A stretch of 64,000 nt of DNA from Kribbella antiqua (lineage in GTDB: Bacteria; Actinomycetota; Actinomycetes; Propionibacteriales; Kribbellaceae), in the NCBI RefSeq assembly GCF_004345665.1, contig NZ_SLWR01000003.1:186001-250000 (forward strand), given 5' to 3'. The notes beneath the pieces were generated by a model that was not told where the DNA came from, searched no databases, and saw only the letters and a program-made list of their open reading frames with translations. Position 1 is the first letter of the stretch; each line of letters begins with the position of its first letter. A program made the translations under genes and the position numbers. Below are positions 18,949 to 30,471 of the stretch, one piece after another.

Positions 18949-20349
18949 TCAGGTGAGGCCGGCGGCGTGCAGGGCGGAGGGGAGGTCGGCGGCCGCGAAG
19001 ACTCTGAGGCCGTACTTCGACTGCATGTCCATCGCCTTCAGTTCCTTGCCGCGGTTGGGCACGTCCGCGGGCACGATCGCCTTGGTGAACCCGAGCCGCG
19101 CCGCCTCGGCCAGCCGCTTCTCCAGCCCGCCGACCCGTCGTACCTCACCGGCCAGCCCGACCTCGCCGATCGCGATCAGCCCGGGATGGATCGGCCGGTC
19201 CATCACCGACGACGTGACCGCGATCGCGACGGCCAGGTCCGCCACCGGCTCGGCGATCTTCACTCCGCCGACCGTGGCGACGTACACCTCCTGGTCGGTC
19301 AGCTTCAGCCCGACCCGATTCCCCAGTACGGCGAGCACCATCGACACCCGGGACGACTCCACCCCGGACGTGGTCCGGCGTGGTTGTGGCGCGGCCGATG
19401 GCCCAACCAACGCTTGTACCTCAGCCAGCAGTGGCCGACGGCCCTCCATCATCACGGTCACGCACGTCCCCGCGACGGGCTCGGCGTGCTCGGAGACGAA
19501 CAGGCCGGTCGGGTCCGACACCTCGACGATGCCGGTGTCGACCATGTCGAAACAGCCGACCTCGTCGGACGGGCCGAACCGGTTCTTCGTCGCTCGCACC
19601 ATCCGGAAGCCGGAGTGCCGGTCACCGTCGAACGCGAGTACGACGTCGACCAGGTGCTCGAGCATGCGAGGACCCGCGATGGCGCCGTCCTTGGTGACAT
19701 GCCCGACCAGTACGACGGCGATGTGCCGCTCCTTCGCGAGTCGCACCAACGCACCGGTCACCTCGCGGACCTGGGTCACGCCACCGGGCGCGCCGTCGAC
19801 CTCGGGGTGCGCCATCGTCTGGACCGAGTCGATGACGAGGAACGACGGCTCGACCGCGTCCACCTGGCCGACGACCGCGGACAGGTCGGTCTCGGCGGCA
19901 AGGTAGAGCTCGTCGACCAGCGCGTCGGTCCGGCCAGCTCTCAGTCGGACCTGGGCGGCGGACTCCTCGCCGGAGACGTAAAGCGTGCGCTGACCGCGCC
20001 GAGCCGATTGGGCCGCGACCTCCAGCAGCAGGGTGGACTTGCCGACACCTGGCTCGCCCGCGAGCAGGATCACGGCACCTGGTACGACGCCGCCGCCCAG
20101 GACTCGGTCGAGCTCGGCGATGCCGGTCGGGCGGGACTCGGCTTCGATCGCGGAGACCTTGGCGATCGGCATGGCCGGTGACGACACTGGCCCGGCGGCG
20201 ATCCGGGCAGCTTTGGGCGCCCCGACCTCGGCGACGGTGCCCCACGCCTGGCACTCGCCACACCGGCCGATCCAGCGCGCCGACGTCCAGCCGCACTCCG
20301 AGCACGCGAACGCCGGCTTCGCCTTGGTGTTCCCCGCTGCCTTCGCCAT
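18949..20349 (-). CDS. radA: DNA repair protein RadA (Sms)
   Basis: RecA-like branch-migration ATPase that helps process recombination intermediates. The 466-residue protein has an N-terminal zinc finger (C16, C19, C30, C33), a RecA core with Walker A GEPGVGKST near residue 100, the RadA-specific KNRFG motif near 255, and a C-terminal Lon-protease-like domain (from about 280) without the Lon catalytic Ser-Lys arrangement. Start ATG at 20349 gives the family N-terminus MAKAAGNTKAKPAFACSECG and is preceded by TAGGTT at leaderless spacing. Confidence 0.96.
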   Translation of the reverse strand: MAKAAGNTKAKPAFACSECGWTSARWIGRCGECQAWGTVAEVGAPKAARIAAGPVSSPAMPIAKVSAIEAESRPTGIAELDRVLGGGVVPGAVILLAGEPGVGKSTLLLEVAAQSARRGQRTLYVSGEESAAQVRLRAGRTDALVDELYLAAETDLSAVVGQVDAVEPSFLVIDSVQTMAHPEVDGAPGGVTQVREVTGALVRLAKERHIAVVLVGHVTKDGAIAGPRMLEHLVDVVLAFDGDRHSGFRMVRATKNRFGPSDEVGCFDMVDTGIVEVSDPTGLFVSEHAEPVAGTCVTVMMEGRRPLLAEVQALVGPSAAPQPRRTTSGVESSRVSMVLAVLGNRVGLKLTDQEVYVATVGGVKIAEPVADLAVAIAVTSSVMDRPIHPGLIAIGEVGLAGEVRRVGGLEKRLAEAARLGFTKAIVPADVPNRGKELKAMDMQSKYGLRVFAAADLPSALHAAGLT

Positions 20350-20356
20350 GCCGACA

Positions 20357-20362
20357 AACCTA
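20357..20362 (-). promoter_or_regulatory. Putative -10 of radA, leaderless
   Basis: Minus-strand TAGGTT, seven bases, ATG. It decides for 20349 over the upstream in-frame start at 20400. Confidence 0.45.
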
Positions 20363-20401
20363 GAGGACGCCGCCGACAGAACGCCGGAGTTCATCCACAA
20401 G

Positions 20402-21721
20402 TCAATGGCGGAAGTGGTTTCGGAGCCGGGCGAGGAGACGGCGGATCCAGCTCACGGCGGTCTGATGCGAGGCTTCTTCGGTGACTTCCGGCGGCTGCGT
20501 GGGCTCGCGGGCGGCTTCGAGATATTGCGTCAGCAGCTCGCTTTCGGAACCTCGGAGCACTGCGCTCTGTTCGAGCAGCTCACGCCCGCGTTCGCGGCTG
20601 CCGGCGACGACTTCGGCGGAGCCAAGGTGTTGCAGGCAGCGGGCGAGGCCTTCGATTTCGTCGATCTCGGCGTACAGGTGTTCGGCGTGCTGCCACCAGC
20701 GTCTGGCCTCGTATCGGCTGCCCTGCATCCACGCGGCCACGCCCATGAGCTCGGACGCGTGTGCCTGGCCGCTGACGTCTCCGGCGGCAGTAGCCCGGGC
20801 TACTGCGGGCCGGAGCTGGTCGAGAGCGCCTTCGGCGTCCTGTTGATACAGGTGGACAACTGCCAGGTTGATCTGGATCGCCACCTCGGCAGCAAGGTCC
20901 GGGCCCGGTCTGCTCAGCCGTGCGTCCTCCAACCGGTCGCGGGCATTCAGCACGGCCTCTTCCCGGTCGTTGCCCGCCGGCGACCGCTCTGCGCGTGCCA
21001 GGTGCAGCAGGGCTCGCTCTACCTGCCGGCGGGTCGTCAGTGCGGCCGCCGTACGGCTGTGGGTCGCCACGCTGTCCGAGATCCCCAGCCGCGTGGTGGC
21101 CGTCTCCACGTCGCCCATGAGCCTGAACGCCGTTGCCGCACGGGCTGCGGCGAGCTCCGCCAGGTCACGCCGGCCACATCCGTCGGCGACCGCGGTCAGG
21201 AAGTCACTCAACTCCAGCAACGCTTCAGCGTCGTACCTGCGCAGGTACCAGACCTCCAGGGCGTCACAGATCCGTGCGAGGTCGTCCGCGGTGTCCACTC
21301 GTGGTTTCTCGTTCTGCAGCAGCTCACGCAGCCCTGACTCGTTCGTCGAGAACCACTCCGCCGCAGCCATCCCGCCCGCACCCGAGCCGAGAGCGACCAT
21401 CGAGCGCTCGGCCTCCTCCGCCGCGAGGTGCAGGCCCGTAGCCTCCGCCACCGCCGTGATCTGCTGGCGCCGACGCCGGCGCTCCCGCAGGGCCGGAGGT
21501 ATGTAGTAGATCCCGCAGATCACCGCGCACGCGGCGGTCATGGTGTAGCCCGCCAGCTCGAGCCAGCCGCCGCTGTCGAGCGTTTGCGCAAGCTTCTCGC
21601 CCACGATCCCGGACAGCAGAGCTGACGCGATGGCGACGATGCCGAAAAAGCCACCCCTTCTGCGGCTCTCCCGATCCCTGTCCTCCGGCCGGCGTTCTTC
21701 CTCAGGTGGAGCGTCGGTCAT
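20402..21721 (-). CDS. Membrane-anchored TPR-like protein
   Basis: A 439-residue protein with a charged N-terminus, two transmembrane helices (about 25-45 and 55-75) and a long alpha-helical cytoplasmic region of TPR-like repeats (from about 120 to 400; for example AEVAIQINLAVVHLYQQDAEGALDQL and ARCLQHLGSAEVVAGSRERGRELLEQ). It is the last gene of a four-gene ABC transporter operon; its ATG overlaps the permease stop (ATGA), so it is translationally coupled to the transporter. A scaffold or sensory partner role is possible, but no motif shows a specific activity. Confidence 0.75.
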   Translation of the reverse strand: MTDAPPEEERRPEDRDRESRRRGGFFGIVAIASALLSGIVGEKLAQTLDSGGWLELAGYTMTAACAVICGIYYIPPALRERRRRRQQITAVAEATGLHLAAEEAERSMVALGSGAGGMAAAEWFSTNESGLRELLQNEKPRVDTADDLARICDALEVWYLRRYDAEALLELSDFLTAVADGCGRRDLAELAAARAATAFRLMGDVETATTRLGISDSVATHSRTAAALTTRRQVERALLHLARAERSPAGNDREEAVLNARDRLEDARLSRPGPDLAAEVAIQINLAVVHLYQQDAEGALDQLRPAVARATAAGDVSGQAHASELMGVAAWMQGSRYEARRWWQHAEHLYAEIDEIEGLARCLQHLGSAEVVAGSRERGRELLEQSAVLRGSESELLTQYLEAAREPTQPPEVTEEASHQTAVSWIRRLLARLRNHFRH

Positions 21722-23490
21722 GGCCTGCTCCCCACAGTCAGGCCACGCACGACCGTCTGCCAGAACGACAGCATCAGCACCACCGGCACAACAGAAGCGA
21801 CAACAGCCGCGGCTGCAACAGTTCCACTGGACGAGGAGAACTGCCGAGCCTCACCCCACAACACCAGCGACAGGGGCGTCGTACCAGGACCACTGATCAG
21901 GAATCCGACGATGAAGTCGTTCCACACCAGTGCAAACTCCAGCACCGCCACAGCAACCAGCGCAGGCCGATACGTCCGCTGCACAGTCGCCAGTACGGCG
22001 CTCTGTCGCGCTGGCCCCTGCAATGCCTCAGACACCAACGCAGGCGGAGCAGACGCGAAAGCAGACCGCAGAAGCAGCACAGCGAACGGCAGGCCCGCGG
22101 CCGCATGTACCAAGGCCAGTGCGAGCCGCGACCCAGCCAACCCCGCCGCACCGATCGCATCCCGCAGCGGGGCGGCGTACATCTGCACCGGCGTCACGGC
22201 CAGCACCACGAACACAGACGTCACGACACGGCCCAACCACTGCGGCAGACCACCCCACGCGACCAGATAGGCCGTCGGTACGGCGATCACCAGCAACACA
22301 GCCGTCGCAGCACCAGCGATGAGCACGGTCGACAGCAACGCCCGGAACAACCCGACATTCGCCGCAGCAGCGAACGAAGAGAACCCCAGCCCCGACAACG
22401 ACCACCAACCGCGCAGACCGGCCTCCCGCGGCGAGTGCAACGCAGTAGCGACCAGCACCACGGCCGGCAGGATCCAGACCAGGCTCACCGCGAAGCCGAC
22501 AATCCACCCGATCCGCCGTACCCGCTTGCTGGGCTTCGGCCGGCCCACTGACGCATCAGGCGGTACCACAGCCACCGGCATCGCCCACCGACGCCGCCGC
22601 AGCCCACGTACGCCGATCACTCCGACGGCAGCGACGATCGCGAACAACACCACGCCAAGCGCCGCAGTGCGACCCGGGTCGGCACCAGTGGTCGTCGCAC
22701 GCCACCAGTTGAGTCCGAGCACATCCGCAGACCGCTGCATCGGCCCGGGTACGACGATCAGTACCAGGTCGAACACCCGCACTGCCGCGATGACGAGGGT
22801 CAGCGTCACCACACCGGTGATGGGACGCAGCAACGGGATCTCCAGCATGGACAGTCGTCGCCAGCCGCTGACACCTTCCGCAGCGAGCGTGCGGCTCACG
22901 TCGTCGGGTATCGCATCCAGGCCGGCGCGGAACAACGAGACGACGTACCCCAGCCAGGTCCAGCCGAAGGCGGAGACCAGCACCAGCCAGAACAGGCCAG
23001 GGCCGAGCCAGACCGGGCTGGAGCCGAACAGCTGTGTCCAGACCGCCGTCACGGTGCCGCGTTCCGGCGTGGCGTCGAAGATCAGCCGGAATGTTGCCCC
23101 CGACACCAATACCGACACGGCGAACGGGATCACCAGTGCGGGTTGCAGGAACGATGTCACCGCTGGCAGTCGATAGCTCAACAGGGCAAGGAGAAACCCG
23201 ACCACCACCAGGCCGAACGCGACCAGCACCCAGAGCAGACTATTGCCCACGGCACGTAATGCGCCCGGATCGCCCATCACCGCGAAGTTGCCGAACCCGA
23301 AACCGTCCGGTGTCCGGAAGGCCGCGACGACAGTCACACCGATCGGCACCAGCAGCAGACAGCTCAGCAGCAGCGCGGGCAGTCCCAGCAGGTACGGCCC
23401 GGCCGGTCGGCGGGGTTTGCCCGGCACAGGCCGGCCGCTGACCTCGCGCCCGACCACCTCGAGCGACAGGCCGTTGCTCTGCAGGCCCAT
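21718..23490 (-). CDS. Fused double-permease subunit of a sugar-type ABC importer
   Basis: A 590-residue inner-membrane protein that joins two binding-protein-dependent permease domains normally made as separate MalF- and MalG-like proteins. The first spans about residues 30-300, the second about 325-585. Each has about six helices and an EAA-type coupling loop (AAEGVSGWRRLSMLEIPLLRP in the first, SEALQGPARQSAVLATVQRTYRP in the second). The start overlaps the stop of the binding protein gene by one base. A single-chain permease would fix the heterodimer. The second EAA loop is less canonical, as is the partner ATPase. Confidence 0.88.
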   Translation of the reverse strand: MGLQSNGLSLEVVGREVSGRPVPGKPRRPAGPYLLGLPALLLSCLLLVPIGVTVVAAFRTPDGFGFGNFAVMGDPGALRAVGNSLLWVLVAFGLVVVGFLLALLSYRLPAVTSFLQPALVIPFAVSVLVSGATFRLIFDATPERGTVTAVWTQLFGSSPVWLGPGLFWLVLVSAFGWTWLGYVVSLFRAGLDAIPDDVSRTLAAEGVSGWRRLSMLEIPLLRPITGVVTLTLVIAAVRVFDLVLIVVPGPMQRSADVLGLNWWRATTTGADPGRTAALGVVLFAIVAAVGVIGVRGLRRRRWAMPVAVVPPDASVGRPKPSKRVRRIGWIVGFAVSLVWILPAVVLVATALHSPREAGLRGWWSLSGLGFSSFAAAANVGLFRALLSTVLIAGAATAVLLVIAVPTAYLVAWGGLPQWLGRVVTSVFVVLAVTPVQMYAAPLRDAIGAAGLAGSRLALALVHAAAGLPFAVLLLRSAFASAPPALVSEALQGPARQSAVLATVQRTYRPALVAVAVLEFALVWNDFIVGFLISGPGTTPLSLVLWGEARQFSSSSGTVAAAAVVASVVPVVLMLSFWQTVVRGLTVGSRP

Positions 23491-24740
23491 CAGCCCTCCA
23501 CCTTCCGCAACTCGGTCATCGCCGCGTCGACCGCATCAGCCACCACGCCGTTGCCGCGGTCGCCGATGCGGATCAAGAAGTCAGTGAGGACTCGCCAGAG
23601 CCTGTCAATGTCACCGAGCCGCCCGAGCCGGTCTGAGAGGTCGAACTGCAGCAGGCCGCCCGGCGTGGCCAACTGCTCCGCCAGCCGAGTGAGCTCGGGG
23701 GAGTAGCCCGTCACCCGTCCATCAGCGAGGAACCCACCTTCCTTGATCCACGGATCCGCTGCCGCTGGAGCGGCGAGACGTCGTACCAGGTCTCGGGCGT
23801 CGTCGGTGGTGGGCTTCGGCAGCACCATGACGTCACCGCCCACCACTACTGGAGCTGCTGCACCAGAGCTGAGCGGTGGGAAGGTGAAGAGGCCGATGTC
23901 GTTGGGGTCCGCGGCGAAGGACCGCACTACAGGCTCTGCGAAGTCAGAGGCCAGCACCATGGCAGCTCTGCGATGGCCGAACACCTCGACGATGGCATCA
24001 GGGAACTGCTGTACCAGTGAGCGCTTCACACCACCTGCCAGCGTTTCAGGCGCCGACCACATGCTGCCCAACAGACGCAGGGCAGCCGCGAACTGTGGCT
24101 GCCGTGACGGACGTGGAGTGGTCGCTGTCGCGAGTGCCGCGTAGACAGACGGAGCTATACCGAGCAGCACGTTCTCCAGGAAGTCCGTGAGCACCCAGCC
24201 ATCTCCGGCAGCCAGAGACAGCGGACGGATGCCAGCCTGCGTCAGCGTCCGGTTGAGCGTCAGCCACTCGCTCCACAGCCGCGGCGGTTCGACTCCGACC
24301 TCTCGGAACACCGACGGCCGGTACCAGACCGCGGACTTGTGTGCCGTCTTGAATGGGACGCCGTACGTAATTCCGCCTTGCACCAGGAGTTCGGACCAGA
24401 GCCGGGCCCGGCCGAGCTGTGCCACGTCGTCTGGAATGGGTTCCAGGTCGCGGAGCTGGCGCGGGACGAGTCCAGGCTGCGGCAGCATCACGATGTCCGG
24501 CCGGTGTGGCGAGCGAGGGCCGAAGGCGGTCGAGATGTCATCGCCCAGCGGTACGGTCTCCACTGGATAGTCCAGCTTGCCGAGCCCTTCGAGTACGGCG
24601 TGGAACGCACGCAGCTCCTGCCCACTCCAGCTCACCGCGATCCGCACACTGCGACGTAGCCCAAGGACGTCACTGGAACACCCAGCAGCTAGCAGCGATG
24701 TCGCAGCAGCTCCCAGGAACGCGCGTCGATTATGCGGCAC
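23490..24740 (-). CDS. ABC transporter solute-binding lipoprotein
   Basis: A 416-residue extracytoplasmic binding protein of the sugar family (SBP_bac_1/8 type). The N-terminus has a twin-arginine-like motif NRRAFLG followed by a hydrophobic stretch and a lipobox LAAGCSS, so it is probably exported by Tat and lipid-anchored at Cys21. The body shows typical features: a Trp-rich ligand region, and GGDVMVLPKPTTDDARDLVRRLAAP in the C-terminal lobe. It overlaps the upstream degenerate ATPase gene by 11 bases and the downstream permease by one base. Ligand unknown. Confidence 0.88.
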   Translation of the reverse strand: MPHNRRAFLGAAATSLLAAGCSSDVLGLRRSVRIAVSWSGQELRAFHAVLEGLGKLDYPVETVPLGDDISTAFGPRSPHRPDIVMLPQPGLVPRQLRDLEPIPDDVAQLGRARLWSELLVQGGITYGVPFKTAHKSAVWYRPSVFREVGVEPPRLWSEWLTLNRTLTQAGIRPLSLAAGDGWVLTDFLENVLLGIAPSVYAALATATTPRPSRQPQFAAALRLLGSMWSAPETLAGGVKRSLVQQFPDAIVEVFGHRRAAMVLASDFAEPVVRSFAADPNDIGLFTFPPLSSGAAAPVVVGGDVMVLPKPTTDDARDLVRRLAAPAAADPWIKEGGFLADGRVTGYSPELTRLAEQLATPGGLLQFDLSDRLGRLGDIDRLWRVLTDFLIRIGDRGNGVVADAVDAAMTELRKVEG

Positions 24741-25281
24741 GGCGGAAGCCCGTCGTACGCGCGGAATCGGTGGTGATGAGCAATAGCGCTGCAGACCAGA
24801 GCTCGGGGTTGCTCTCGAGCCGCAGCAACGAGCCCCACGTTGGCAGGCCGCTTGCGTCCTCCAGCACGATCACCGCCGGGTGTGCACGCAGCGCCCGAGC
24901 CACGCCGGCCAGCCGACGACGGCCTGGCGTGATCTCGTGCGGATAGCGATCCAGTACGTCTTCCAGGCCACACCGAGCCGCGGTCACCCGGCACTCCTCT
25001 TCAGCAGCCTTACGGGTGATCCGGTGAGTGACTGTGTGCCCGTGCACCACGTTGCCGAGCACAGTGAGGTAGGGGAGCAGACCGCCTTCAGCAGGCACCA
25101 GCCGGACCGCACCAGCGGTTTTGACCACGGCACCGTCGGGCGGCTCCTCCGCACCGATCAGCAGGTCGCCCAGTTGCCGGGCTGCGGCGGCAGAGGGCAT
25201 CACCAGCGCTCGCTGCTCACCGATGTCGATCCGGAGTCGCTCGGGCAGACCCGGTAATCGTTCGAGCAGCAGTCCGTCCAT
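24730..25281 (-). CDS. Degenerate ABC ATPase-like subunit, probably catalytically dead
   Basis: A 183-residue protein that aligns along the length of an ABC nucleotide-binding domain but has lost every catalytic motif. The P-loop region reads PSAAAARQL (29-37) without GxGKST. The Q-loop Gln is absent (VPAEGGLLP, 62-70). The signature LSGGQ is EITPGRR (116-122). Walker B LDEP is LEDA (140-143, D and E swapped), and the H-loop His is missing (ITTDS). Remaining landmarks (GGLLPYLTVLGNVVHG, RYPHEI, VARALRAHPAV) show the ancestry. It is first in an operon with the binding protein, fused permease and TPR protein. It may be a structural or regulatory subunit, with ATP hydrolysis supplied by a shared MsiK-type ATPase elsewhere. 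Confidence 0.8.
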   Translation of the reverse strand: MDGLLLERLPGLPERLRIDIGEQRALVMPSAAAARQLGDLLIGAEEPPDGAVVKTAGAVRLVPAEGGLLPYLTVLGNVVHGHTVTHRITRKAAEEECRVTAARCGLEDVLDRYPHEITPGRRRLAGVARALRAHPAVIVLEDASGLPTWGSLLRLESNPELWSAALLLITTDSARTTGFRRAA

Positions 25282-25316
25282 GCGCTGGCTGGCGCCTCCC
25301 CAGAAAGTTAAGTGCC

Positions 25317-25332
25317 ATCACCCTAGAGTGAT
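25317..25332. promoter_or_regulatory. Inverted repeat upstream of the ABC operon
   Basis: ATCAC-CCTAGA-GTGAT, 36 bases upstream of the first ABC gene. The minus-strand hexamer TAGGGT lies within it, so it may be an operator over a -10 element. Confidence 0.3.
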
Positions 25333-25378
25333 CAGAGGGCCGTTCGCAGCCGGGGCCGCGCGCCGTTTCAGAAGGGGT

Positions 25379-26074
25379 TCAGAAGGTCCGACTCCACAGG
25401 TTGACCGCGTAGTCGACCTCCACGCCGGGATGCGACGCAATGATCCGCTCGGCGTCGGCCGGAGTGAACTCGATCCGCACCACCGCCTCGAAGTCCTCCC
25501 GCCGCTCGAACCGCCAGCCCATGTCGAGCTGGGTCCGCTGCCAGCCGCGCGCGGCCCAGAATCGTTCCACCACAGGCGGTTTGATCATCGGGTACGCCGC
25601 GCTGAACCACCGCCCGAACGTCGACCGGCTGCCGTCGTTGTCGATCACGAACGCGGTCCCGCCGCGCCGCATCACCCGGTCCAGCTCAGCCAGCCCGGGC
25701 TCACAGCCCGGCCCGAAGAAGTACGCCCAGCGTGCGTGCATCACGTCGACCGAGGCATCAGCCACCGGCAACCGCTGCGCCGTACCTTGCCTGATCTCGA
25801 CGTTCGCCAGCTGGCGAGTACGACGCTTGGCCGCACGAGCCAGCCCGCCATGCGGCTCCACCCCGATCACCCGGGCCGCGGTCGCCGCGAACATCGGCAA
25901 GTGGAACCCGTTCCCGCAGCCGATGTCTAGCACCGTCGCCCCGGCCCAGTCCCGGATCGCCCGCATGGCCGGCTCGATCACGCCGTCCGGGTCCACCGCC
26001 TCGTTCTCGACCTCGTACACCTTCGGGTGGTGCCAGATGTTGGGACTCGGAATCCCACCTTCCGCGATGCTCAC
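25379..26074 (-). CDS. Class I SAM-dependent methyltransferase
   Basis: A 231-residue methyltransferase of the Methyltransf_11 type. The SAM-binding motif I is VLDIGCGNGFHLPM (about 49-62), followed by the acidic loop VIGVEPHG, motif II region VDVMHARWAYFFG and motif III ELDRVMRRGGTAFVIDND. No substrate-specific domain is visible. It starts four bases after the stop of the MFS gene, so both are in one transcript, and a resistance or small-molecule modification role is possible but not shown. Confidence 0.88.
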   Translation of the reverse strand: MSIAEGGIPSPNIWHHPKVYEVENEAVDPDGVIEPAMRAIRDWAGATVLDIGCGNGFHLPMFAATAARVIGVEPHGGLARAAKRRTRQLANVEIRQGTAQRLPVADASVDVMHARWAYFFGPGCEPGLAELDRVMRRGGTAFVIDNDGSRSTFGRWFSAAYPMIKPPVVERFWAARGWQRTQLDMGWRFERREDFEAVVRIEFTPADAERIIASHPGVEVDYAVNLWSRTF

Positions 26075-28893: not shown

Positions 28894-29045
28894 GGTGAAT
28901 TTCTCCCAGGAATCAGTAACGGCAGGGACCTCGGCAACGATGTGACGTTCGTGCGCTTTCCAGGGGGCAGGCGCACTGATCTGTCCTTCTGCCACGACGT
29001 CGCACCATCCCAGCGACGCCGTACCTGTTGACCTTGGGGGTCTAC

Positions 29046-29723
29046 ATGCGCGTGTTGTCATTCCTCGCCGCCGCCGGCGTTTTCGCTGCCGGTGTGATCG
29101 GCGCCGCTCCGGCGGCCGAGGCTGCGGGCACCTGCAGCCTGTACGTCCAGAGCAAAATCTCGATCGGTTCGCCGTACCGGACCATCACGGTCAAGGAGGG
29201 CCCGAACTGCACGTCTGCTGGTGTCATGGACGCCTACTGGACCGCTGTTCACCCTACGCAGGGCGAGGGAGTTGGCGCCGACTTCGAGAACTACGCCCGC
29301 TCGACCACGGTCCCCATCTATGACTTCTTCCCGCTCGGGAAGTGGACCTGGCGTGGCGATGGCGCCTACAAGGCGGCCGACACCACGCCCTCGGTGTACC
29401 AGTACTCGCCGGTCACCGATGTGCGGCTGGCCTCGTACGGCCGGGTGTACCCGACGCGGACCGGGTCGAAGGTGAACATCAAGACCTCCGCGAACCGCTA
29501 CTGGGCCGGCGGCAGCAAGTTCATCGGCTGGTCCGGCGCCCGCGGTCAGATCCAGTACCGTACGCCCGGCACCACCACCTGGAAGGGCCTGAAGGACGTC
29601 TACTCGACGTCGACCGGGGCCTACAGCTACACCTACTCAACCACTGCGGTCCGCGAGTACCGGGTCGTCCTCTACGCGGTCAGCACCATCTGGGAGTCGA
29701 CCAGCCCGATCGTCAAGAAGTAG
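29046..29723 (+). CDS. Secreted protein, tandem paralogue A, function unknown
   Basis: A 225-residue protein with a signal peptide (MRVLSFLAAAGVFAAGVIG, cleavage likely after AEA near residue 27). The mature part has two cysteines (in TCSLYV and NCTSAG) and many Tyr, Thr, Ser and Trp residues, suggesting beta structure. The C-terminal 75 residues, beginning YWAGGSKFIGWSGARGQIQY, look like an immunoglobulin-like domain and are almost the same in the next gene. GGGGG lies just upstream of the ATG at 29046. I do not recognise the family. Confidence 0.85.
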   Translation: MRVLSFLAAAGVFAAGVIGAAPAAEAAGTCSLYVQSKISIGSPYRTITVKEGPNCTSAGVMDAYWTAVHPTQGEGVGADFENYARSTTVPIYDFFPLGKWTWRGDGAYKAADTTPSVYQYSPVTDVRLASYGRVYPTRTGSKVNIKTSANRYWAGGSKFIGWSGARGQIQYRTPGTTTWKGLKDVYSTSTGAYSYTYSTTAVREYRVVLYAVSTIWESTSPIVKK

Positions 29724-29737
29724 TTCCACAGCTCGAA

Positions 29738-29776
29738 CGCGCCGGCTGCGAACCGTCCTGATTCACAGCCGGCGCG
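29738..29776 (+). terminator. Hairpin between the two secreted paralogues
   Basis: Arms CGCGCCGGCTG and CAGCCGGCGCG pair perfectly over 11 bp; after one mismatch three more pairs (GAA/TTC) extend it inward. It lies eight bases before the GGGGGG ribosome binding site of the second copy, so it may attenuate read-through. It is homologous to the hairpin after the second copy. Confidence 0.7.
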
Positions 29777-29799
29777 ATATTCCTTTGGGGGGAATTCTC

Positions 29800-30471
29800 A
29801 TGCGTTTGTTGTCGTTCCTGGCCGCTGCCGGCGTCTTCGCCGGCAGTCTGGTCGCTTCCGCGCCGGCGGCCGATGCCGCAGGCACCTGCAGCCTGTACGT
29901 CCAGAGCCGGATCTCGATCGGTACGCCGTACAAGGAGATCACGGTCAAACAAGGTCCGAACTGTGCGGCGGCGGGTGTCACGGACGCCGCCTGGACCGCC
30001 ATTCACCCGACGAAGGGCTGGCAAGCCGTCGCGTACTTCGAGAACAGTGCGCGTACCGACTACATCGATGTCTACTCCGACGCCCCGCTCGGCCGGTGGA
30101 CGTGGCGCCCCGACTACGCCTGGGATGCCAGCTACACCGATGTCTATCAGTACACGCCAGTCACCGATGTGCGGCTGGCGTCGTACGGGCGGGTGTACCC
30201 CACGCGGAGCGGGTCGAAGGTGAACATCAAGACCGCCGCTATGCGTTACTGGGCGGGCGGTGACAGGTTCATCGGCTGGTCCGGCGCTCGTGGTCAGATC
30301 CAGTACCGTACGCCGGGCACCACCACGTGGAAGGGCCTGAAGGACGTCTACTCGACCTCCACCGGCACCTACAGCTACACGTACAACACCACCGCAGTGC
30401 GTGAGTACCGGGTCGTCCTCTACGCGGTCAGCACCATCTGGGAGTCGACCAGCCCGATCGTCAAGAAGTAG
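29800..30471 (+). CDS. Secreted protein, tandem paralogue B, function unknown
   Basis: A 224-residue paralogue of the preceding secreted protein, with a signal peptide (MRLLSFLAAAGVFAGSLVAS, cleavage likely after ADA) and the same cysteine positions. The N-terminal 25 and C-terminal 75 residues are nearly the same as in copy A, while residues 60-115 differ strongly. That pattern suggests a duplication followed by divergence of one surface, or gene conversion of the ends. TTGGGGGGAA precedes the ATG. Function unknown. Confidence 0.85.
   Translation: MRLLSFLAAAGVFAGSLVASAPAADAAGTCSLYVQSRISIGTPYKEITVKQGPNCAAAGVTDAAWTAIHPTKGWQAVAYFENSARTDYIDVYSDAPLGRWTWRPDYAWDASYTDVYQYTPVTDVRLASYGRVYPTRSGSKVNIKTAAMRYWAGGDRFIGWSGARGQIQYRTPGTTTWKGLKDVYSTSTGTYSYTYNTTAVREYRVVLYAVSTIWESTSPIVKK

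Follow-up and report, generated by a model that had tools for sequence, protein, structure and literature searches.

A conserved four-gene actinobacterial cassette with a degenerate ABC ATPase subunit, possibly a receptor derived from a sugar importer

Hydrolysis of ATP is the defining feature of ABC importers. In the CUT1 importers LpqY-SugABC, which transports trehalose, and MalEFGK2, a solute-binding protein (SBP) and two permease halves work with the ATPases SugC and MalK, respectively. When MalFGK2 is idle, its MalK subunit anchors the STAND regulator MalT (PMC10427625). In mycobacteria and corynebacteria, the SBP GlnH, the membrane protein GlnX and the TPR kinase PknG together sense amino acids (PMC6069109). 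Importer NBDs that have lost the Walker A lysine are described for RbsA and NupO (PMC11466899). IniR, a mycobacterial STAND protein that answers to trehalose (PMC5760070), is a further neighbour in idea. Our literature search, which ran largely outside subscription papers, returned no description of the gene set that we report here.

The set lies in a 64,000-nucleotide stretch of the Kribbella antiqua genome (NZ_SLWR01000003.1, positions 186,001 to 250,000; hereafter the window), with all genes on the minus strand. The first ORF, with an ATG start, encodes a 183-residue protein predicted to have an ABC ATPase fold without the catalytic motifs (24730..25281), which we refer to as the pseudo-NBD. 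It is followed by genes for a 416-residue Tat-type solute-binding lipoprotein (23490..24740), a 590-residue single-chain permease (21718..23490) and a 439-residue membrane-anchored TPR-like protein (20402..21721). Adjacent genes overlap, as the original prediction had described; the overlaps are 11 nt (NBD/SBP), 1 nt (SBP/permease) and 4 nt (permease/TPR), and the corresponding ones in 31/31 other Kribbella loci are 7-14, 1 and 4 nt when the starts are taken from alignment. The gene order was kept in the window and in all 38 fetched loci. The lipoprotein belongs to the sugar-type SBP_bac_1 family (Pfam, 39.8 bits) and matches a glucose-binding protein at 9.2e-8. An RR motif and a lipobox are visible in the window protein; the former occurs in 38/38 and the lipobox pattern in 36/38 of the other loci.

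Upstream, the cassette is bounded by a methyltransferase gene (25379..26074, minus strand), and no sigma-70-like promoter or terminator was found in 25200-25450. Downstream of the TPR gene, in the same direction, is radA (18949..20400, minus strand), and among the window ORFs there is no active ATPase gene between these two flanking genes. The distance from the TPR gene to the listed radA ORF start is 1 nt, with the true radA start possibly further in. The close spacing, and the same place and direction of radA in 31/31 other Kribbella carrier loci, make co-transcription with the cassette a possibility. We do not count radA as part of the cassette because there was no RadA match in the 7 loci from the Actinopolymorpha family (f4; Actinopolymorpha is a genus of Actinopolymorphaceae), and because the methyltransferase gene leads directly to radA where the cassette is absent. 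Elsewhere in the window, two adjoining and very similar proteins of 231 and 228 residues with signal-like N-termini are encoded at 29028-30471, a tandem duplication.

At the level of sequence, the likeness of the pseudo-NBD to ABC NBDs is weak yet significant. The Pfam ABC_tran score of 18.5 bits lies below the 25-bit gathering cut-off of the family; a profile matched a ModC-type protein (2onk, 1.2e-14) and SugC (2.6e-11), and further matches were obtained to NCBIfam TcyN (3.3e-10) and FbpC in the PDB (2.1e-9). The ABC ATPase fold itself is confidently modelled, in agreement with the earlier description of a 183-residue NBD-like protein that keeps its fold landmarks. The AlphaFold2 model (19 aligned rows) has a pLDDT of 89.7 and a pTM of 0.87, and the best ten structural matches align over 173-181 of the 183 residues with Z-scores of 16.9-18.1, among them a chain of MlaFEB (18.1), MalK (17.3) and SugC (16.9).

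To characterize the catalytic motifs, the window protein and its orthologues (41 aligned: 32 Kribbella, 7 from the Actinopolymorpha family and 2 others) were compared column by column with four canonical NBDs. In the window protein the canonical Walker A GPSGSGKST is replaced by MPSAAAARQ, the Q-loop VFQ by VPA, the signature VSGGQ by ITPGR, and the H-loop VTHD by ITTD. Walker A, the Q-loop glutamine, LSGGQ and the H-loop histidine occur in 0/41 sequences, so that these four losses hold as originally predicted. The fifth, that of the Walker B acidic residues, does not: LLDEP..LD has become VLEDASGLPTW, and the pair is swapped from DE to ED rather than lost in 41/41, although the canonical Asp-Glu order is gone.

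We next consider where the cassette occurs. Among 58 genomes, including that of the window, an orthologue of the pseudo-NBD is present in 32/37 Kribbella and 7/8 members of the Actinopolymorpha family; ordinary NBDs match the query weakly in all 58, and the orthologues are set apart at about 1e-14 or better. Orthologues of the pseudo-NBD, permease and TPR gene were found in the identical 39/58 genomes. Sampling across the order found the permease in 39/196 genomes, from 3/29 genera. Six Kribbella (L214-L219) lack the cassette cleanly, the methyltransferase gene being followed directly by radA. Genome-wide searches covered the NBD, permease and TPR gene in five of them and the permease in the remaining one (G211); the SBP was looked for at the site. 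On a quick tree of RadA and the methyltransferase, in which one cassette-less row (L219) sits on a long branch, these genomes are scattered: six changes are needed, at least four of them forced by starred branches, and the presence/absence label clusters no more than expected from shuffled labels. Absence of the cassette in Kribbella apparently reflects several separate events, and in this genus the four genes are thus present or absent as a unit.

For the original prediction, related operons without the NBD gene would have been a refutation. None exists among the genomes searched in Kribbella, where every carrier of the permease and TPR gene also has the NBD (32/32), or in the Actinopolymorpha family (7/7). 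Beyond these groups the outcome differs. In a genus that we label Nocardia-like, which is a guess, 13/251 genomes of its family carry the set, all of them in this one genus, and in 13/13 loci the cassette consists of SBP, permease and TPR protein and lacks a pseudo-NBD. The pseudo-NBD is therefore not universal in the wider family. NBD-like ORFs occur in the fetched stretch of 3/13 Nocardia-like loci and of one cassette-less Kribbella locus (L216); each of the four has a canonical Walker A and is either separated from the cassette or opposite to it. Genome G712 and Nonomuraea gerenzanensis also carry all four genes of the cassette, with a dead NBD. The record of the latter (L225, NZ_LT559118.1; 11.85 Mb) is listed as a plasmid but is chromosome-sized. 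In the Actinopolymorphaceae loci L112, L113 and L045 the cassette adjoins a gene that we take to be of the MlrC/M81 type, and in L112 and L113 a presumably PHP-type protein is encoded downstream of it.

With the permease as query, 27/246 class genomes gave a match at 1e-30, in most cases confined to the C half, and 4/394 genomes matched at 1e-40 when an Actinopolymorpha query was used; the matches in G404, G154 and G348 are separate genes, not fused, and were set aside. One survey with the NBD gave 52 loci, of which 20 were relatives (18 Kribbella, 2 Actinopolymorpha) and the other 32, with short and weak matches, were taken as ordinary NBDs. A class-wide NBD profile gave 12 non-window matches outside the family; the 8 that were inspected all have canonical motifs. 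No pseudo-NBD match was found in a phage collection at 1e-10, which disposes of a phage copy.

The permease has an N half that resembles SugA (1.1e-14) and a C half that resembles SugB (3.9e-17). BPD_transp_1 scores 29.6 bits against a threshold of 26.4 in the window protein, in the N half only, and gave no hit in the one Actinopolymorpha and one Nocardia-like relative scanned. Both EAA loops, at residues ~200-223 and ~481-511, are degenerate. The EAA..DG coupling motif is absent from either half of all 54 family permeases, and even a literal EAA is found in 0/54 N halves and in 1/54 C halves (G712, out of register), compared with 9/9 and 8/8 of the distinct canonical permeases. This canonical control is small: once 2 duplicates are taken from the 11 N-half rows and 1 from the 9 C-half rows, 9 and 8 distinct rows are left, and six in each half are close relatives of one another.

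As judged from alignments, the loop is more conserved than the rest of the protein in canonical CUT1 permeases and not so in this family. Canonical pairs with an overall identity of 0.33 (N) and 0.36 (C) have loop identities of 0.57 and 0.48; these figures exclude the duplicates, which the canonical ratios of the family-pair analysis still included. The loop/rest identities, determined for 28/54 permeases (11 Kribbella, 6 Actinopolymorpha family, 11 Nocardia-like; all 54 entered the motif count), are 0.27/0.33 (N) and 0.28/0.43 (C) for Kribbella-Nocardia-like pairs, 0.36/0.50 and 0.25/0.53 for pairs of Kribbella with the Actinopolymorpha family, and 0.31/0.33 and 0.37/0.47 for pairs of the Actinopolymorpha family with the Nocardia-like genus, in which the N-half loop is conserved nearly as much as the rest. 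As aligned, the C-half loop is at least one residue shorter at the EAA site in 27/28 rows. Among the Kribbella rows it is nearly constant, which points to a probable new partner. The N-half loop of Kribbella, with an AEG..W..LP pattern still in place, is only partly eroded, so some docking of an ATPase could persist there.

This partial erosion is the chief reason to keep the likeliest alternative in view, namely that the cassette is still an ATP-driven sugar importer in which a shared MsiK/MalK-type ATPase from elsewhere occupies at least one of the two docking sites and the pseudo-NBD has a regulatory or asymmetric role. In Streptomyces, DasABC-MsiK and CebE/MsiK are named as sugar importers that use MsiK (PMC6167110, PMC4890002); one degenerate NBD half is known in RbsA and NupO (PMC11466899); and the genome of the window has at least 150 ABC_tran matches over the cut-off (150 scored of 315 candidates, judged by score). 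Against it stand the loss of EAA..DG from both halves in 54/54 permeases, the Nocardia-like cassettes without an NBD, and the pseudo-NBD itself, which lacks Walker A and the signature, so that neither composite site formed with an active partner would be canonical. With the EAA motif lost in each half of the permease, the pairing with an MsiK-like ATPase that the original prediction had raised fits less well, and we consider this explanation unlikely.

The fourth protein of the window contains one hydrophobic stretch, residues 22-44. Its model is all-helical and of moderate confidence (pLDDT 73.8, pTM 0.55), and a Foldseek search with it returned the TPR proteins LGN and RapF; in Pfam the TPR match is sub-threshold. 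No NTPase family was hit in this 439-residue protein. Longer fourth proteins, of ~920-980 residues, are found in 9 relatives (7 Actinopolymorpha-family genomes, G712 and Nonomuraea gerenzanensis), where a STAND-like NTPase segment separates the membrane anchor from the TPR part; the window protein corresponds to the C-terminal part of this TM-STAND-like-TPR protein. The Walker A lysine of the STAND-like segment is replaced by Ser or Thr in 9/9. We use STAND for a resemblance and not for membership, as the Pfam scores in the two relatives scanned are below the cut-offs (AAA_16, 24.3 against 32.6; AAA_22, 22.4 against 27). The segment is absent in the alignment from the Nocardia-like fourth proteins, and Pfam scans revealed no DNA-binding domain in the fourth protein.

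A linked TPR/STAND-like partner is left unexplained if the permease were an ATP-independent facilitator or channel, through which solute would move down its gradient under the gating of the SBP and the pseudo-NBD. Good conservation of the permease between genera, with less in the coupling loops, is consistent with such a function. We know of no importer transmembrane domains with SBPs that work in this way, which also counts against it, and we regard it as quite unlikely.

Fifteen columns of the pseudo-NBD are invariant across the 41 sequences, including V62, G67, L68, P70, N77 and E141-D142. V62, G67, L68, P70 and N77 adjoin the Q-loop, and the stretch right after the Q-loop is kept as GGLLPHLTV and close variants (GGLLPxLTV); in importers, this segment faces the coupling helix. 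As aligned, two extra residues are present near the ED. Retention of the ED pair in 41/41 and of PTW in 39/41 would suit a remodelled site that binds a nucleotide or another phosphate ligand, making the protein a ligand switch. Such a role is very doubtful, as the P-loop is replaced by a variable stretch (28 distinct 9-mers among the 41) with no GxxGxGK pattern and no lysine.

Selection on the cassette was estimated as the original prediction had proposed. By the method of Nei-Gojobori, on non-independent pairs with dS of 0.05-0.6, the median dN/dS is 0.154 for the NBD, 0.138 for the SBP, 0.086 for the permease and 0.173 for the TPR gene, and 0.091 for RadA and 0.194 for the methyltransferase as neighbours. 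The NBD value is like that of the SBP and below that of the adjoining methyltransferase, and indicates purifying selection; one close pair has an NBD dN/dS of 0.33. In all 32 Kribbella carriers the NBD match is free of internal stop codons. In 3/32 there is one TGA inside the TPR match, where open frames reach query residue 432-436 of 439, and this TGA therefore sits at the C-terminal end. In the locus sequence of L045 the fourth gene is broken across two frames, and in L040, L042 and L045 it extends to the end of the sequence stretch.

By these sequence-based measures the pseudo-NBD is old, conserved and not decaying. A decaying operon with the NBD as a pseudogene on its way out could be read into the lost motifs and the cassette's apparently repeated loss from six Kribbella, yet it is already contradicted by the median dN/dS of 0.15, the 0/32 internal stops, the identical losses in other families and the lack of any Kribbella permease and TPR carrier without the NBD, and is extremely improbable. 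Orthologues with canonical motifs at the same locus, the expected trace of recent decay, did not appear: the same losses are found in 41/41. Purifying selection together with the clean absence of the whole cassette argues for a function, and these results and the conservation of the gene support the proposal of a structural, asymmetric or sensory role rather than decay. Among these roles, a sensory or structural one fits best.

Taken together, the data led us to a reading in which belief and doubt are about evenly balanced: the four genes may encode a receptor-like membrane complex that derives from a CUT1 (SugABC/MalFGK-like) importer, is no longer run by ATP, and uses the pseudo-NBD as an adaptor. 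In the sequences, the ATPase motifs, the EAA motif of both permease halves and the Walker A lysine of the relatives' STAND-like segment are gone; the SBP, the membrane helices and the pseudo-NBD segment beside the Q-loop are retained. The shared distribution of pseudo-NBD, permease and TPR gene and the Nocardia-like sets that do without a pseudo-NBD also speak for this reading. In such a complex the lipoprotein would bind an extracellular solute, probably a sugar, and would dock on the fused permease and alter its shape. The pseudo-NBD, in the former place of the ATPase, would relay this change to the membrane-anchored TPR protein, which in turn would bind a cytoplasmic target. Overall, a MalK-MalT-like link would have been converted into a stand-alone sensor. 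These steps are made plausible by two published systems, MalFGK2-MalT and GlnH-GlnX-PknG.

No effector or regulator linked to the cassette was found in the loci scanned. A kinase as the conserved output was rejected, as a kinase motif is near the cassette in 1/13 Nocardia-like loci, in 0/9 Actinopolymorpha-family loci (two genomes counted twice), and in 0/2, 0/31 and 0/18 of the other loci. The single case, in one Nocardia-like genome (L175:3836-6202), is a Ser/Thr kinase gene convergent to the TPR gene, with the motif in 0/12 of the other Nocardia-like loci.

Somewhat more tentatively, the receptor reading can be extended to a class of ATP-independent receptors made from a whole ABC importer, with an SBP, a fused permease whose coupling motifs are erased, a dead NBD as adaptor, and a membrane-anchored STAND-like/TPR output whose NTPase, the second in the set, is also dead. 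Both energy modules would then have lost their working residues within an architecture conserved across several actinobacterial families. If true, an importer scaffold can turn wholly into a sensor, and the cassette offers a natural system for asking what an NBD does besides hydrolysis.

Comparison with the described systems reveals partial likeness to each. The cassette shares an SBP and two permease halves with LpqY-SugABC and MalEFGK2, with the SugB and SugA profile matches and a pseudo-NBD model that matches SugC and MalK; it differs in that the halves are fused, the EAA and ATPase motifs are lost, and a TPR partner is added. As in MalK-MalT, a MalK-fold protein is encoded with a TPR-like protein that is STAND-like in relatives; here, however, key residues are missing from both NTPase modules, and the STAND-like protein is apparently anchored in the membrane. 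A degenerate importer NBD is common to the cassette and to RbsA and NupO, in which it is fused to an active NBD (PMC11466899); the cassette encodes no active NBD. Finally, GlnH-GlnX-PknG also has a lipoprotein SBP as sensor and signals via a TPR domain, but GlnX is a four-helix-bundle receptor and not an importer permease (PMC6069109); that system has no pseudo-NBD, and the cassette has no kinase.
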